Part shown: positions 3,438 through 10,519 of the stretch, piece after piece
Layout: each line of letters begins with the position of its first letter
Position numbering within the stretch: the first letter of the stretch is position 1
From: a virus
DNA: 22,041 nt
Strand: one strand, 5' to 3'
IMG/VR virus record: IMGVR_UViG_3300020201_000103
Span: 1-22,041 of that record
Program-made: the position numbers and the translations under genes
Notes under the pieces: model-generated
The model's input: only the letters and a program-made list of their open reading frames with translations
What the model was told of the DNA's origin: nothing
The model's database searches: none

Positions 3438-5750
3438 TTATTTATATCTAATAACGAAATAAGTCGTAAAGTATGGATCTAAGTTATTATGTGCATCCCC
3501 CGAGCCTGCGTTTTGATTAGTTGCGGTTGTACTTCCTACAGAGTCATCTCCAACTCCCGGAGTAACCCAACCTCCACCTGCAGATTGTAAACCGGGCGAT
3601 GCGTTATTTTCTATCCATGTACTATGAGTATGCGAGTTCTGTAAATGTGTATGAACCGCTAACTCTGCAGTAGTTAAAGTATGAGTTTTTGAACCACCAG
3701 TAACACCTAAAGTTTTAAATTCCGTTTGAGAATTATCGACCCCGATTGGCTTTCTTCCAGCACCCGGTGGTAAGTTAAAAGTAGTGGATCCATTACCCAA
3801 ACCGTGTGGACAACTTCGCATTGAATGAATTCCTGATTGAGATCCGGTTGTTGCTATTTTTGTGCCAGCAATAGCATTCACAAGAGATGTCGCAAGCCAG
3901 AATGTATTAGTATCGTTCGCAATTACATAGTAAATCGTGTTTACACTGAGCCCTGTTGGCAATGCCCCTGTAGTGGTCATGTAGATTTTATCCCCGGTTT
4001 TGAAAGGATGTGAATTTAATGTGAATACTCCGGGAGTCGCAATTGTTAAAGTAAAATCTCCAATGAGAGGCACTATAGTATTAAATAATTCGGAATAGTC
4101 AGTCCTGCTTATAGCTGAACCGTCTCTTACTAAAAATCCGTAAGGTAATACAATTGTATCCCACATAATAGTGCCTCCCACAGGTATGATCATTCGAGCG
4201 ATATTAATACCACCAATTTGAACATCTCCCCCTTCAGTAGGATCGTATTTCGCATTGAATGCAACTCCTTGTTGAGTCCAATCGATAACCGGGGTTCCAA
4301 TGTTTAAAGTTCCTTCTATTATATAGTTTGTAAGCTTATCGTATAAACGAACTTCGACATCAAAAGATTTTGAAGCATCGAATCCTGAAGATCCTAAGTC
4401 TCCGTCTACATAATCCTCGAATTCTATATTTCCACTAGAGTCTGAAGAAACCGATAATGAATTCCATGTTTGAGCCCCCCACGCATCTGTCGTTTCTTTA
4501 AATCTATAATGTACGGTCGCTGTGTTTAATACTCCAGATCCGGGATCTGAGGTCGTATTCGAGGAGAAGTACTTCTTCCAGAATCTTCCGTTAAATACTA
4601 ATTTTGTTGGAGTATCGATTCCGTTATTTCTTTGAAAATCAAGGCCGAATAGAATCACAGCTTCATACTCGGCCATAAGGGATAATGAATTATTAACTGT
4701 GGTGGTTAAACTTCGGGAATCAAAGGCTGTGACTGAGTTATCCGGAGTGTCGGCATTGTCTATGTCCATCTCAACTGTTGATCCTGCACTATAGGCAATT
4801 TCGGATTGCTGACCACCGGCAACAAATCTGTATTTTATTCCAGTCGCACTATTTAAAGGCACCATTTTATTACCTGAGGTAATTGAAGCCCTTATTTTAG
4901 AGTAACTTTTAATCATCTTTGTGGATGATCCGAGTAGAGTCGCTGTGCTAGACGACACTAGAACATTGCTATACTTATCCGTATTAATTATCGTCTTATC
5001 CACATTAGCGACCGTATATGTCGTAAACGTTGGCTTATTTGTTGTCTGATTTACAGAGGCAGTCCCGGCTTTATCTTGATTAGATCCGACTTGAGTCCCA
5101 TACCCCCCATTTGTAAATGTTTGAAGTCTTACGGTTGCACCTACGCTCGTACCGCTGGGAACTTGAGCATACATTGCATCGATTTCCCCAGAGTTGAAAG
5201 TTAGAGAAATGCTCGAAGTCTGGCCGAGAGTTTGGGTTTTTATCAAAGATCCGTTCACATAAGTTAGAGCTTTTAGATGTAGATTTCCCGGATTGCTTAT
5301 TATAAGAGGGATTGAATCTCCTATTACAAAGTTAACTGAGTTTGAAATACTCGCCTGCCTTGGTATAGTAGGAAGAGAAACGGTCTGTCCAAAATTGAAA
5401 GTTCCCCATGAGATATCTGTATTCCCATCAAATCCCACATAACAGGATTTAGTACCATCTGAATTATGGGCTACGGTTACAGTTCGGCTTCGAACGACTT
5501 GATCAGTTGTCCCACCTTGTAAATTAAATGTTATAGAGGAATTGCTGTCATTTCCATTAATGTTTGAGTTGGCGTTTGCACTCCCGGAAAGGTTAAACCC
5601 GTAATAGGCAGTATTTACCCTTTGAAAGTGAAGCTCTGCGTATACATTCGAAGTATTGTTTACAATATCCTGACTGCTTACATACCACGTTATATACGGT
5701 CTTACGTTTCCTGAACCTATTCCTGAAAATGAACCATAAATTTCTGCCAT
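3438..5750 (-). CDS. Tail fibre: DUF859-like N-terminal region with tail-collar tip
   Basis: A 770-residue protein. The N-terminal ~500 residues are Ser/Thr/Asn/Gly-rich beta structure with features of the DUF859 siphovirus tail proteins, such as AHNSDGTKS and SLPTIPRQA near residues 95-135. From about residue 520 a tail-collar domain (microcystin-dependent/T4 gp12-type) is seen: PVGGTIMW, then YSELFNTI, GNGSTTFNLP, an HTHLQNSHTH histidine cluster (700-709) and the end HNNLDPYFTTYFVIRY. HxH pairs in T4-type fibre tips bind metal ions, so the cluster may hold one. Residues about 565-646 are an extra domain inserted into the collar fold. The product is expected at the distal tail and to contact the host surface. 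ATG 5750 lies 3 nt after the preceding stop. It is the last tail gene before the lysis genes, consistent with a receptor-binding protein. Confidence 0.8.
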   Translation of the reverse strand: MAEIYGSFSGIGSGNVRPYITWYVSSQDIVNNTSNVYAELHFQRVNTAYYGFNLSGSANANSNINGNDSNSSITFNLQGGTTDQVVRSRTVTVAHNSDGTKSCYVGFDGNTDISWGTFNFGQTVSLPTIPRQASISNSVNFVIGDSIPLIISNPGNLHLKALTYVNGSLIKTQTLGQTSSISLTFNSGEIDAMYAQVPSGTSVGATVRLQTFTNGGYGTQVGSNQDKAGTASVNQTTNKPTFTTYTVANVDKTIINTDKYSNVLVSSSTATLLGSSTKMIKSYSKIRASITSGNKMVPLNSATGIKYRFVAGGQQSEIAYSAGSTVEMDIDNADTPDNSVTAFDSRSLTTTVNNSLSLMAEYEAVILFGLDFQRNNGIDTPTKLVFNGRFWKKYFSSNTTSDPGSGVLNTATVHYRFKETTDAWGAQTWNSLSVSSDSSGNIEFEDYVDGDLGSSGFDASKSFDVEVRLYDKLTNYIIEGTLNIGTPVIDWTQQGVAFNAKYDPTEGGDVQIGGINIARMIIPVGGTIMWDTIVLPYGFLVRDGSAISRTDYSELFNTIVPLIGDFTLTIATPGVFTLNSHPFKTGDKIYMTTTGALPTGLSVNTIYYVIANDTNTFWLATSLVNAIAGTKIATTGSQSGIHSMRSCPHGLGNGSTTFNLPPGAGRKPIGVDNSQTEFKTLGVTGGSKTHTLTTAELAVHTHLQNSHTHSTWIENNASPGLQSAGGGWVTPGVGDDSVGSTTATNQNAGSGDAHNNLDPYFTTYFVIRYK

Positions 5751-5753
5751 TTT

Positions 5754-7118
5754 TTAATTATTAACAACTAACATTCCACCGGTATTTGTTGGGATTATTC
5801 GAGTACTTTTTTCTGCGTTTTGATATCTTTGAATGATTAGGTAATCCTGAACGGTTAACTTAGTTACTGTACCGGAGTCTTTATCAACCAATAATATCAC
5901 TCTTTCAGACCCAGAAGAAGTGTCATATACTGCAAACTTTCTGTTATCTAAAAGTGATTTAAAAGGATCCGTTTGAGAGGTAATGGAAAAACCATCTTTA
6001 TCGAATCTGAAGCCTTTCCCATAAACTTCGTTTGGTGCTTGAACCCATCCGTTAATATCGCCCCTTACTATTACTATATCACTAATTGTAAGTTCTCCAT
6101 CTGTATAGGCGGTATTATCTATATTTAAAGTGGTGCTGGATCCTGTCGCAGTAAACTGCCTCTTGAAGGTCGCCCAGCTTAAACTCTCGGGTAAAGTTAT
6201 CCCCCCAGACACACCAGTTAAGGTAATATCGGTATCTTCTGCAGATTTATATCGGAAATATAATGTATACATTTCTCCCTCGATCGTAGATATAGTTTGT
6301 TGAATATACTGCTCCGCCAAGAAGAATGCAGATCCACTTTCAGTATTCACAGTTGTATCAGAAGTTTGATCAATTGTTGCATCGTTGTCCGCATCTATTA
6401 AGTCTCCTTCGGTATCAAATAATTGCCATTCCTCTATACTTTCTTTTAACCCTGCAGAATTCTTAATTAAGTTTATTCCTCCGGTTTGAGATACTTTTAA
6501 CGTTAAAGCCTCGGCAGTTTGCTGAAGCTCGGTTACGTCTTCTTGGATAATCGTAATGCTATCTTCGTTGGCATCGATTCTGTTTTGTGCATTATTTACC
6601 TGCTCGGTAATTGCCGATATGGAGTTTGTAATAGAGTCAGTCAGAATAGATATCTGAGCGGTATTTCCTTCCATATCTGCGTTCAGAATTTCAATCAGTC
6701 CCTTTTGCTTATTTACTATGATTTCAGTATTTCTAATTCTTCGGCCAATGATTCCTGCAGTATCATAATCGGTTTTAGTTTTATCAGGTGTTTTTGCGAG
6801 TATAGTTTCCGATACTCCACCGGTAATGTTTATGGTTATATCCAAAATGACGACTTCTGCTTCTACACCGTTAGGATCTTTCACTATAATTCTGTCTCCG
6901 ACTTCGAAGTATCCTAATCCCATCGTATCTGCAGAAAAGGGTTTAAATGAAGTTCCTATTAAGGCAGTAGCTATGGGGACAATGGCAGTCTCCCTGTCAG
7001 CGTCAACGATTAAATTATTTACTATTCTAAACTCTAAAGGCACGACCTCATCTAGAAGAATGTTTGATCCATTCTCTAAAAGTAATACGTCTCCATTTTC
7101 GAGTAATAAAAAACTCAT
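5754..7118 (-). CDS. Tail-tip (Tal-like) protein, C-terminal half encoded separately
   Basis: A 454-residue protein. Residues 1-24 are a low-complexity LLLENGDVLLLENGSNILLDE segment. Residues 27-140 (FRIVNNLIVDADRETAI, GYFEVGDRI, TPDKTKTDYDTAG, RNTEIIVNKQ) match what normally forms the middle of a Tal/prophage tail-endopeptidase-type protein, where it follows the SRQPQEDN segment that ends the gene at 9426..10160. Residues 145-210 are coiled coil. Residues 213-355 begin NLIKNS and look like a carbohydrate-binding-type beta sandwich. The C-terminus (GFRFDKDGFSIT onward) is a common fibre-tip ending. I infer that this is the detached C-terminal half of the tail-tip protein and that it must assemble with the N-terminal half. 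The start codon overlaps the previous stop (TAATG). No peptidase motif is seen. Confidence 0.7.
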   Translation of the reverse strand: MSFLLLENGDVLLLENGSNILLDEVVPLEFRIVNNLIVDADRETAIVPIATALIGTSFKPFSADTMGLGYFEVGDRIIVKDPNGVEAEVVILDITINITGGVSETILAKTPDKTKTDYDTAGIIGRRIRNTEIIVNKQKGLIEILNADMEGNTAQISILTDSITNSISAITEQVNNAQNRIDANEDSITIIQEDVTELQQTAEALTLKVSQTGGINLIKNSAGLKESIEEWQLFDTEGDLIDADNDATIDQTSDTTVNTESGSAFFLAEQYIQQTISTIEGEMYTLYFRYKSAEDTDITLTGVSGGITLPESLSWATFKRQFTATGSSTTLNIDNTAYTDGELTISDIVIVRGDINGWVQAPNEVYGKGFRFDKDGFSITSQTDPFKSLLDNRKFAVYDTSSGSERVILLVDKDSGTVTKLTVQDYLIIQRYQNAEKSTRIIPTNTGGMLVVNN

Positions 7119-8311
7119 TAAAAGAATGCTAAAAAGTTCGAATTAACTGACGGCCCTGGCCCGCCTCCCGGTTCTGATACCGTTAACAGTAATTCAGCAG
7201 ATTTAGCGAGGCTTTGATCTGCAGAGGCTATATCAGTTGTTCCGGAGTTCCATGTAAGTATTATAACTAATTTTGATCCAGCACTGGCTCTATCTGCCCA
7301 CTCTTGGATTACAGTTTTTATATCCGGTGATAAATCATACCCAGCATTTGATAATGTTTCTGACCATGTAATATGTGCAGTTGTAAGAACTCTGTCACTT
7401 AAATTATCTGAGGCAGATGTAAAATCGGAGGGAGTATCAACGTCTTCTGCGTAAATTTCGCAGTTTAATGTTAAATTACTTCCGTTAAAAGATTGTACTT
7501 TCAGATAGGCAGAATCTATAACTAGACCCTGTATGTCTACTTTTCTAAACATAAACCCGACGTGCCTATTATTTGTATCCAGTCTTAAGCTTGTAGATGT
7601 TAATTGATCTGCATTTCCATTTGTAGCTTGGTAATTATCATCGCCACCACTTGCAACGTGTAGATTTACCACACCACTTCTATTCCCAATGAAGGCGGTA
7701 TCTGCAGAAATAAAGTCTTGGTAATAATCATAAGTTGCGTTAGCAACGTAAGCCATACCCGAGATAAGTTTCCGAGCCGTTATACTTCCTCCTGTATTTG
7801 TATCTCCAGAGTCATAATCGGGTGAACCTGCAAGCCCGTTATTTAGCCAGAGCTGGATTCTTCCAGTCGAACCGTGAAATTTAACACGAATTTCAATAGT
7901 AAATATCTGGTCTAAAGGTAGACTTACACCTGTGTCAATATATCCAGTCGCTGTAGTTGTCGCAGATAAACGAACAACTCCAGTTCCATAGTCTTCAATA
8001 TTAAATTTTGCAATATCTACATCAGAGGCATCCCAGAGCGTAAAGAAACCAGCATATCCCCCGGCACCCCACGTTTGACCACTGGGAATAAAACCTTTCA
8101 ACTGAACATATATATCGGAGTAATTTGCACCTAAATTTTTAACCGCCGAGGCGCTTCCCTCGCCTACAGAATTAAAGAATAGAGATTTACTTCCAATAAC
8201 CTTTCCAGAGGTGTCAAGAGTAACGGTAGGGGCTCCCCAGACCTGAGAAACCGAGTCGAACGAACTGGGTAAACTACCCTCGAAATTGTCAGGGCCGAAT
8301 AATAGAGCCAT
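7118..8311 (-). CDS. Fibre/baseplate protein: LamG-like domain plus extracellular beta-sandwich domain
   Basis: A 397-residue protein. Residues about 1-210 look like a concanavalin/LamG-type fold: FEGSLP near the start, YVQLKGFIPSG, GFFTLWDASD, IEIRVKFHGSTGRIQLWLNN. A second domain at about 217-380 (VGFMFRKVDIQGLVIDSAYL, IYAEDVDTPSDF, TPDI-like SPDIKTVIQEW, then SAELLLTV) resembles a beta-sandwich module that I know from bacterial extracellular proteins rather than from core tail genes. A Gly/Pro linker and the tail SVNSNFLAFF finish the protein. Both domains suggest glycan or surface binding. It lies in the cassette between the two halves of the tail-tip protein and is coupled to the next gene by a TAATG junction. 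Exact function is unknown; recognition of the second domain is from memory of sequence patterns. Confidence 0.6.
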   Translation of the reverse strand: MALLFGPDNFEGSLPSSFDSVSQVWGAPTVTLDTSGKVIGSKSLFFNSVGEGSASAVKNLGANYSDIYVQLKGFIPSGQTWGAGGYAGFFTLWDASDVDIAKFNIEDYGTGVVRLSATTTATGYIDTGVSLPLDQIFTIEIRVKFHGSTGRIQLWLNNGLAGSPDYDSGDTNTGGSITARKLISGMAYVANATYDYYQDFISADTAFIGNRSGVVNLHVASGGDDNYQATNGNADQLTSTSLRLDTNNRHVGFMFRKVDIQGLVIDSAYLKVQSFNGSNLTLNCEIYAEDVDTPSDFTSASDNLSDRVLTTAHITWSETLSNAGYDLSPDIKTVIQEWADRASAGSKLVIILTWNSGTTDIASADQSLAKSAELLLTVSEPGGGPGPSVNSNFLAFF

Positions 8312-8314
8312 ATT

Positions 8315-9409
8315 TTAAAAGTTATTAAGTAAAGCTATTAAGTCCCATTTTGTATCTGCTGAATTATAAACAAACCCTAGATACATCGTTTTACTAATTA
8401 CCGTTGTCGTAGGTAAAGCTAAATCACTAGAAGCTCTATAAATAGCGTTCCAAGCCAAAGTTCCAGCAGTCCCATTATCTTTAATCCTAATTATTAACTT
8501 CTGTCCATCAGTTGGTGTACCAGATGGAGCCGCAAATGTAGCACCAGCCGCAAGAGCGGTAACATTGTACTGGTCGCTTGAATCGCCTGTTGGAGTAGGA
8601 GTACTACTTGATGTGGTTGTTTCTATTCTTGAAGTGATTCTCTTATTTGTTAAAGTTGCACTTGCACTATTTTTAGTTTGATCAGAAGTGTTACTTACAT
8701 TATTTAAATGCAGTATTGATTTTGTTGTGGAAACTGATAGAGCTTCCGGCACTCCAGTACTAGCAGTATTTCTACCAATAAAAGAAGCAGGTGCCATATT
8801 TGCCATTTTCGAGAGGGTTATTGCACTATTATCTATAGTCCAAACACCACTTGAAACGGTAACATCCCCTTTATCGCCATCGCTTACACCTCCGCCGACT
8901 GCACTATCCACGTATGCCTTTATAGCTTTTTGTGAGGGTATTCGTGTGTCACTATTCGCTGTTAAAGATACGTCTGTATCTACCACGTTCGAAGCGAACA
9001 TAGCTGTAGTCAAATTAGAGATCGAGTTATTTGTAGCGTTTATAGTTTTATTCGTTAGAGTGACCGATGCCGAGTTTTTTGTTGAATCCGAGGTATTGTC
9101 TACGTTTCCAAGCCCCACATCTGCCTTAGCAAGAGCAAGGTCGGTTTTTAATTGTGCCATCGTTCTATTAGTCCAAGCACCAGCTTTCCTTTGTAAGATA
9201 TCATCATCTGTAGGAGATAATCCAGCGATAGTGGTTAAATCCGAATCGACAGGTTGTTTACTAGCGTCTAATCCGTAACGAGTATCTAATTGAGAAATAG
9301 CAACCTTCTTAGTAATTGGAGTTCCTCCGGTATCATCAACAATTGGAAGTACATCATCAGTAGCCAAAGCTGGGATTAAGTCTAATTCGGTTATTTTTTG
9401 ATCAGCCAT
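8315..9409 (-). CDS. Tail fibre protein with duplicated LGNVDNTSD-type repeat
   Basis: A 364-residue Thr/Ser/Asn/Ala-rich protein. Opening MADQKITELDLIPALATDD is a frequent N-terminus of phage fibres and upper-baseplate proteins. Residues 98-122 (VGLGNVDNTSDSTKNSASVT) and 232-256 (ILHLNNVSNTSDQTKNSASA) are two copies of the fibre repeat LxNVxNTSDxTKNSAxxTLTNK. IPSQKAIKAYVDS (157-169) is another common fibre motif. The C-terminal 100 residues form a compact domain starting around DQYNVTALAAGATFAAPSGT. Such proteins usually form trimers at the tail tip or as side fibres. The gene begins 16 nt after the stop of the tail-tip N-terminal half, with an A/T-only leader and no Shine-Dalgarno motif. 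Confidence 0.75.
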   Translation of the reverse strand: MADQKITELDLIPALATDDVLPIVDDTGGTPITKKVAISQLDTRYGLDASKQPVDSDLTTIAGLSPTDDDILQRKAGAWTNRTMAQLKTDLALAKADVGLGNVDNTSDSTKNSASVTLTNKTINATNNSISNLTTAMFASNVVDTDVSLTANSDTRIPSQKAIKAYVDSAVGGGVSDGDKGDVTVSSGVWTIDNSAITLSKMANMAPASFIGRNTASTGVPEALSVSTTKSILHLNNVSNTSDQTKNSASATLTNKRITSRIETTTSSSTPTPTGDSSDQYNVTALAAGATFAAPSGTPTDGQKLIIRIKDNGTAGTLAWNAIYRASSDLALPTTTVISKTMYLGFVYNSADTKWDLIALLNNF

Positions 9410-9425
9410 TTTTAAAATTTAATAG

Positions 9426-10160
9426 TTAAATAGTTTGAGCAATATTATCTTCCTGAGGTTGTCTGCTTAATACCACTGATGTTATCGGCCCATATGTTGG
9501 TTCTAATATCAATTTGTTTAAACTATTTTTATCTAAGGTTTCTAATATTGTATCACTTATATTTCGCACCACGAGTTCATCCGAATTATTAAATTCTATT
9601 ATTGCACCAGAAACCTCAGCTATTTGCTCTAAAACGTCTCTAAAGGTTAACTTCTGATCTAAAAATAAATCTGCAGGTATTCCATAATCATCATTAGGGA
9701 ATTCTGTTGTTGCTAACGTCCAGCTGAATCTAACACAGATAGCTTCTAACAATCCGAGTACAGTGGTGGGGTAGGTAATATCATAAATGGGTTCTAAATC
9801 ATAAGGCTGAAGTGCTTCGTACATTTTATCGTATAGAGTAATCTTCGAGCTTGCGTTTGCTTTATTTGTTTCTACCTTCACAACTTTAAACGATCCATAA
9901 TCTAAGTACTCTATGCTTTCATTTGGCAGTACTACCCCTAGTCCTAAATTTACGTATTTATCTAGGTAGTTATGAGAGCCGAGGTATGTAACAACCGCTC
10001 CTCTCATTACTGTTTTACATATAGAGGAACTGGCCGTTAATTTTATAGTCTGTAGATCATCATCTTGGTTAATCATATTTCCAGAGTCGTTTAGGTAGGC
10101 TTTTGCTTCCCTTCCCGGAGTTTTCATTGCTGTTTTAAATTCTTCTGATACGGTTATCAT
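9426..10160 (-). CDS. Tail-tip (Tal-like) protein, N-terminal half
   Basis: A 244-residue protein that matches the N-terminal region of siphovirus tail-tip (Tal, gp27-like hub) proteins: ITVSEEFKTAMKTPGREAKA, then EYLDYGSFKVVKVETNKANA, ITLYDKMYEALQPYD, LTFRDVLEQIAEVSGA and VVLSRQPQEDN. These hub domains cap the tail tube below the Dit ring. In single-chain relatives the chain continues from the QPQEDN segment into the domain found here at the start of 5754..7118. In this gene it stops five residues later (IAQTI, TAA). The start ATG overlaps the previous stop by 4 nt (ATGA), as expected for a Dit-Tal pair. The short length is the unusual feature: Tal proteins are commonly several hundred residues longer. 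Confidence 0.75.
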   Translation of the reverse strand: MITVSEEFKTAMKTPGREAKAYLNDSGNMINQDDDLQTIKLTASSSICKTVMRGAVVTYLGSHNYLDKYVNLGLGVVLPNESIEYLDYGSFKVVKVETNKANASSKITLYDKMYEALQPYDLEPIYDITYPTTVLGLLEAICVRFSWTLATTEFPNDDYGIPADLFLDQKLTFRDVLEQIAEVSGAIIEFNNSDELVVRNISDTILETLDKNSLNKLILEPTYGPITSVVLSRQPQEDNIAQTI

Positions 10161-10519
10161 GGGATTTTTTTAAACGAGATAATATTTACACTAAATGGTG
10201 CATACACTTCAGTATCTTTTCTAAATAATGGGATTTTAAAGTCTCCAGCATAGAAGTCCTGAGTTTTCAATGAATTACTGGCCACGTCATACCAATCTAC
10301 AGAGAAAGTAGAGTTTAGAAAAAGGTTTGTTAATATAGTCATCTCAGCTCGAGTAGTATAGGCAAATTCTAATGTTATTTTTATGAAATTCCCTATAAAA
10401 GTGGCATTAAGTTCTCCGGCCATATTTCGACCCCCGTCGGCCCATAATTTGACATAGTTAGGTTCATAGCTCTTAAGCTTTGGTAAATTTGTACTGTTTA
10501 TCCTTACTAGTGTATTCAT
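10157..10519 (-). CDS. Short distal tail (Dit-like) protein
   Basis: A 120-residue beta-rich protein between the tape measure and the tail-tip protein, the usual place of Dit. It starts MNTLVRINSTNLPKLKSYEP and contains KITLEFAYTTRAEMTILTNL and FSVDWYDVASNSLKTQDFYA. It resembles the short tail proteins annotated DUF6711 in phages of low-GC bacteria more than full-length Dit (about 200-300 residues), so only an N-terminal ring domain would be present. It probably forms the ring joining the tail tube to the tip hub. It overlaps the next gene by 4 nt. Assignment is mainly by position and size. Confidence 0.6.
   Translation of the reverse strand: MNTLVRINSTNLPKLKSYEPNYVKLWADGGRNMAGELNATFIGNFIKITLEFAYTTRAEMTILTNLFLNSTFSVDWYDVASNSLKTQDFYAGDFKIPLFRKDTEVYAPFSVNIISFKKIP

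Follow-up and report, generated by a model that had tools for sequence, protein, structure and literature searches.

The hub of a phage tail connects the tail tube with the receptor-binding parts and opens when DNA is released; it is commonly regarded as an indivisible core protein into which domains are inserted. Single-chain hubs are found in T4, T5, 80alpha and VgrG (PMC10721106). In lambda, HDI is carried by gpL and HDII to HDIV by gpJ, with genes K and I between them, and gp13 and gp15 of RcGTA are similar to lambda gpL and gpJ, with gene 14 between (PMC10721106, PMC7296036). The chains of both systems assemble 3+3: the first contributes HDI, the second HDII-IV, and the HDII-insertion domain is shared between them.

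We analysed a 22-kb viral record of 38% GC (IMGVR_UViG_3300020201_000103, all 22,041 nucleotides, hereafter the window). In the window the domains of a gp27/Tal-type hub are not in one chain, and are divided over two ORFs, A and B, with two genes between them (Table 1). The original prediction had proposed a tail-tip protein split into two genes by a fibre cassette; all four of its ORFs are present exactly as placed, on the minus strand, with the 364-aa and 397-aa genes lying between the halves. The four genes are tightly packed, and B begins with a start codon that shares bases with the stop of the 397-aa gene (TAATG). Gene order and matches place A and B in the tail module, after the tape measure and a short distal tail-type protein and before the tail/collar gene.

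Table 1. Genes and predicted hub segments of the split locus in the window.
Feature	Position	Strand	Description	Basis
Gene A	9426..10160	-	244 aa; C-terminal end VVLSRQPQEDNIAQTI, then stop; putative N-terminal hub chain: first ring barrel, alpha/beta domain and first strands of second ring barrel	phrog_6616 match; aligned with residues 1-239 of single-chain L003; hub fold of L003
A residues 207-243	9432..9542	-	Predicted first half (four strands) of second ring barrel; ends in QPQEDN segment	L003 model strands 203-239; gp27 equivalent 207-239 (PMC3004832); mapping inferred
364-aa fibre-type gene	8315..9409	-	Putative tail fibre with N-terminal anchor	phrog_3030, phrog_35419 (tail fibre)
397-aa probable adhesin	7118..8311	-	Lectin-like N-terminal part (by eye), weak DNRLRE-like C-terminal part	
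Gene B	5754..7118	-	454 aa; N-terminus MSFLLLENGDVLLLENGSNILLDE; putative C-terminal hub chain: helical stalk and C-terminal beta domains	phrog_6616 match; residues 28-454 alignable to single-chain relatives
B residues 1-27	7038..7118	-	LLLENGD-type repeat leader in place of the single-chain linker	
B residues 28-150	6669..7037	-	Putative hub part: helical insert, rest of second barrel, linker	Profile match, alignment
B residues 76-108	6795..6893	-	Predicted second half (four strands) of second ring barrel	L003 model strands 298-330; gp27 equivalent 307-368 (PMC3004832); mapping inferred
120-aa tail protein, upstream of A	10157..10519	-	Tail protein, position same in relatives	phrog_1194, weak DUF6711
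770-aa tail/collar protein, downstream of B	3438..5750	-	Tail/collar protein	phrog_372, Gp10_C, Collar; synteny

A profile search placed the two proteins at consecutive positions of one single-chain tail family, phrog_6616: residues 71-211 of A match positions 89-220 (E 9.9e-14) and residues 30-118 of B match positions 263-351 (E 3.1e-9). The same profile is matched by 27/27 aligned family sequences, the halves included. The family (also phrog_9680, 'host range and adsorption protein') is described by a profile of one chain, whereas the window phage has two genes with two others between. A search for related phages with an unsplit gene identified, on viral contigs and in two bacterial MAGs, about 21 distinct relatives with A and B in one uninterrupted ORF, some of which run off the contig edge. 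These are L003 (734 aa), L007 (735), L009 (838), L010 (760), L011 (744), L012 (659), L014 (657), L073 (597) and L074 (582), together with L081 to L097 apart from L093 and from L084 and L086, which repeat L007 and L009.

The single ORFs align first with A residues 1 to 240-243 and then with B residues 27-29 to 454, with an identity in L003 and L007 of 51-53% for A and 45% for B. Single-chain homologues run from the QPQEDN segment on into the KTKTDY/NTEIIV domain, the continuation on which the original prediction had staked the split, and B matches the second part of single-chain hub proteins rather than independent baseplate proteins. The sequence blocks quoted for that domain are close to those of the window, not identical with them (GYFEVGDRI, KTPDKTKTDY and RNTEIIVNKQ), and the hub blocks start at B residue 28 instead of 30. 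In the unsplit relatives the end of A and the start of B (residue 27-29) fall at neighbouring positions, so that the loss amounts to a linker of about 10 residues and no hub block is missing. The leader of B (residues 1-27) is missing in all single-chain relatives, and the gene after the unsplit hub is a relative of the window's 770-aa gene in 7/7 checked. Judged by alignment, the colinear matches of A and B are not due to chance. Pfam and NCBIfam searches matched no hub family for A or B, PDB sequences gave no match with the profile of the hub family, relatives of A and B in the phage collection were weak and partial, and a DNA pattern for the QPQEDN segment matched only seven stretches.

The fold was predicted for a single-chain relative. 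An AlphaFold2 model of L003 residues 1-385, built from an alignment of 27 rows, has a pLDDT of 84.8 overall and of ∼92 over residues 1-330, and its Foldseek matches are hub proteins at E 1e-17 to 1e-10 with probability 1.00 (contractile injection system hubs, Mu gp44, MuSo2, gp27, VgrG, Listeria A118 gp18 and a tail-associated lysin). By this model single-chain L003 has the hub fold, the same as in T4 gp27, Mu gp44, VgrG and the Tal proteins of p2, A118 and 80alpha, all of which are single chains, unlike the hub of the window phage. The model begins with strands up to residue 110; an alpha/beta part spans 112-195, strands follow at 203-239, a mix of helices and strands at 241-287 and further strands at 298-330. 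T4 gp27 has two homologous barrels, one at residues 2-111 and the other at 207-239 plus 307-368 (PMC3004832). On L003 the split falls at 239/250, where the first segment of this second barrel would end, so that each of A and B would hold about four strands. The secondary structure, read against the gp27 ranges in the literature, suggests that the break separates the two second-barrel segments. Modelled alone, B reached a pTM of 0.31, with a pLDDT of ∼41-74 in the C-hub region versus ∼92 in the single chain. Such a poor model is as expected if B needs A, and it may also come from the thinner alignment (11 versus 27 rows).

The same break point is found in four phages, the window phage and three diverged ones, all of them uncultured. 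The number of genes between the halves of the three is 0, 2 or 3. In L075 (also L075/G001), which is contig 79 of a MAG labelled Lacinutrix and may be a misbinned phage contig, the N-half ends in QPQEDNILQNL and a stop, three unrelated genes follow (182, 85 and 147 aa), and the second half is a protein of 1795 aa that has Laminin_G_3 and DUF2341 domains, with its C-hub at 1365-1488. Contig 92 of that MAG carries the remainder of the L075 N-half at its end; the two contigs share a 13-bp end overlap, across which the frame is continuous. In L093 the N-half (246 aa) is followed directly by a gene of 970 aa whose C-hub lies at 547-680. L109/L117 has a 332-aa N-half ending in QPQGDDIIQSI and a stop, then genes for a 769-aa fibre and a 72-aa protein, and last a C-half of 457 aa; the leader of this C-half (LLQAEGGKLLQEDGGGLLLE, L117 4374..) resembles the leader of the window's B. 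In 2/3 of the other split phages the second half begins with a large adhesin fused to it. A search of three phyla and families for prophages returned, besides the L075 MAG itself, the unsplit genes of two MAGs and a single remote match, and nothing else. With three further phages opened at the same point and holding different contents there, the proposal of an exchangeable cassette has gained strength.

The anchor of the 364-aa gene (∼residues 3-77) shares homology with the 769-aa fibre, which in L109/L117 is the gene next to the N-half (blastp 33% over 79 aa, E 4e-6). Apart from this shared N-terminal anchor, the intervening genes of the split phages do not match each other. Fibre relatives of the 364-aa gene sit in loci without the phrog_6616 hub family. 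The 397-aa protein matches NCBIfam DNRLRE at E 0.009, below the cut-off of that model, and it has no relative in the phage collection, being found only in the window phage.

Unsplit hubs carry inserts as well. L004 and L011 have at the QPQEDN linker an 85-aa domain that resembles the 770-aa protein of the window at its residues 561-644; L009 (563-3076) has a CBM_4_9 carbohydrate-binding domain at A residue ∼151-152; and seven members have inserts near A residue 82 (L083, L088, L091, L092, L096, L097 and the L109 N-half). The alignments indicate that the hub accepts inserts at three places and that only the QPQEDN linker has been opened into separate genes among the phages seen. A small mobile domain (..TTTGALP..YYVI..TFxLA..) recurs in different tail proteins and at two hub insert sites (window ∼3819-4070 in the 770-aa protein; L011 8748-9005; L117 ∼1060-1330).

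We propose that A and B each form one half of a four-domain baseplate hub of the gp27/Tal type, which is one protein in most relatives. A cassette of fibre genes would interrupt the hub gene directly after the QPQEDN segment, at a linker that tolerates the 85-aa insert of L004/L011, and B would have gained a start codon of its own along with a short leader of repeats. In the virion the chains would reunite, three A with three B, as a trimeric hub. We think it probable that A and B co-assemble in this 3+3 form and that the break serves as an exchangeable slot for adhesins. On balance we also favour, with less assurance, a second ring barrel completed by strands from A and from B, and a break kept in the lineage as a modular site of adhesin swapping. 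A barrel built from both sets of strands would make the association of A with B obligatory. Host-binding parts could enter by two routes, as separate genes between the halves or as adhesins fused to the new N-terminus of B; the fibres would attach at the hub, and their exchange would be the benefit of the break.

A two-chain hub cut cleanly between two whole domains, with no shared barrel, is unlikely: the linker is variable and receives a whole domain in L004/L011, as such a cut would allow, but the L003 secondary structure has four strands on each side of a helical insert, like the two-segment barrel of gp27. If instead the hub gene had been broken by an insertion, A and B would be decaying remnants in a phage that is defective or relies on another hub protein, and the loss of the linker helix along with the gene break would fit such a damaging insertion. 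The state of the halves makes this improbable. Both are without internal stops across three or four split phages, identity among the split phages is 39-54% for the N-halves and 47-51% for the C-halves (pairs measured), and third codon positions change most. Open halves of ∼50% identity with third-position change imply that both halves are kept under selection, as far as codon comparison can tell; no dN/dS value is given because dS is saturated. The split is also present in two near-identical contigs and three diverged phages, and no other hub N or C match was seen in the searched parts of the contig: IMGVR_UViG_3300020192_000046 (34,343 bp) has one N-half and one C-half only in ∼1882-34343, so that no intact hub copy was seen there.

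That contig bears equally on an artefact of assembly or binning, which could be suspected since all records are metagenomic and L075 is spread over two contigs. It has the same layout as the window and was deposited separately, with 99.955% identity over 20,134 bp (9 mismatches, no gaps; full independence of the two records is unproven). With the same break in three other phages, an artefact is highly improbable. We give even less credence to the rejoining of A and B into one chain by an intron, an intein or programmed recoding. The two are colinear and in one operon, as rejoining would require, but two full genes separate them, B starts at an ATG overlapping the upstream stop, the next stop past that of A comes after seven codons (by eye), there is no Rfam match in the window and no direct repeats flank the insert for excision. 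A gene split by an intein, intron or DNA switch was rejected as a model for the locus for lack of an intron and of flanking repeats, inteins being judged by eye only.

Hub trees placed the split phages in one clade, among unsplit members. A topology test did not reject one origin for the split (p-AU 0.238 when three split rows were included and 0.392 when four were); the best hub trees require two changes. One split with later cassette exchange and two separate splits are both possible.

The proposed two-chain hub resembles lambda gpL/gpJ and RcGTA gp13/gp15 in being spread over two genes with others between. In contrast to the first chain of those systems, A extends past the first barrel (to ∼110) and the alpha/beta part (112-195) into further strands. 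The lambda and RcGTA first chains have four conserved cysteines and an iron-sulfur cluster, whereas A has two cysteines in all, and the genes between have plug or peptidase functions there and encode fibres or adhesins in the window phage. The evolved Tal proteins of streptococcal and lactococcal phages likewise bring host-binding modules into the hub, but their carbohydrate-binding inserts are domains of one chain, not separate genes that break it (PMC7291167). The suggestion that the layout might be undescribed thus holds in part: two-chain hubs with genes between are known from lambda and RcGTA, while the cut point and the adhesin slot seem to be new. The open-licence papers that we searched do not describe a hub divided at this position. 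The core hub gene is open at one point in this lineage, where the host-binding genes differ between phages. Should A and B together restore one barrel, this hub would be a split protein of natural origin, and its unsplit, domain-inserted and split relatives, taken as a series, would offer a testable path from one-chain hubs to two-chain hubs such as that of lambda.

Several other features of the two records were observed. A clear Shine-Dalgarno motif is absent upstream of most window genes. The gene at the window's end (3-377) contains a coding repeat (WGVKAKVSKSKQSLAKVSKV..), and the near-identical contig has an extra repeat copy (L002 19784-20485), where the alignment of the two records ends. 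An endolysin of GH25 type was recognised by eye at 1152-2258; endolysins of this type are usual in phages of monoderm hosts. The near-identical contig also carries several glycosyltransferase-like genes and an FkbM-like methyltransferase in a row (by eye; L104 3329-8957, ∼27.3-33.0 kb of IMGVR_UViG_3300020192_000046), an unusual cargo for a phage of ∼35 kb.
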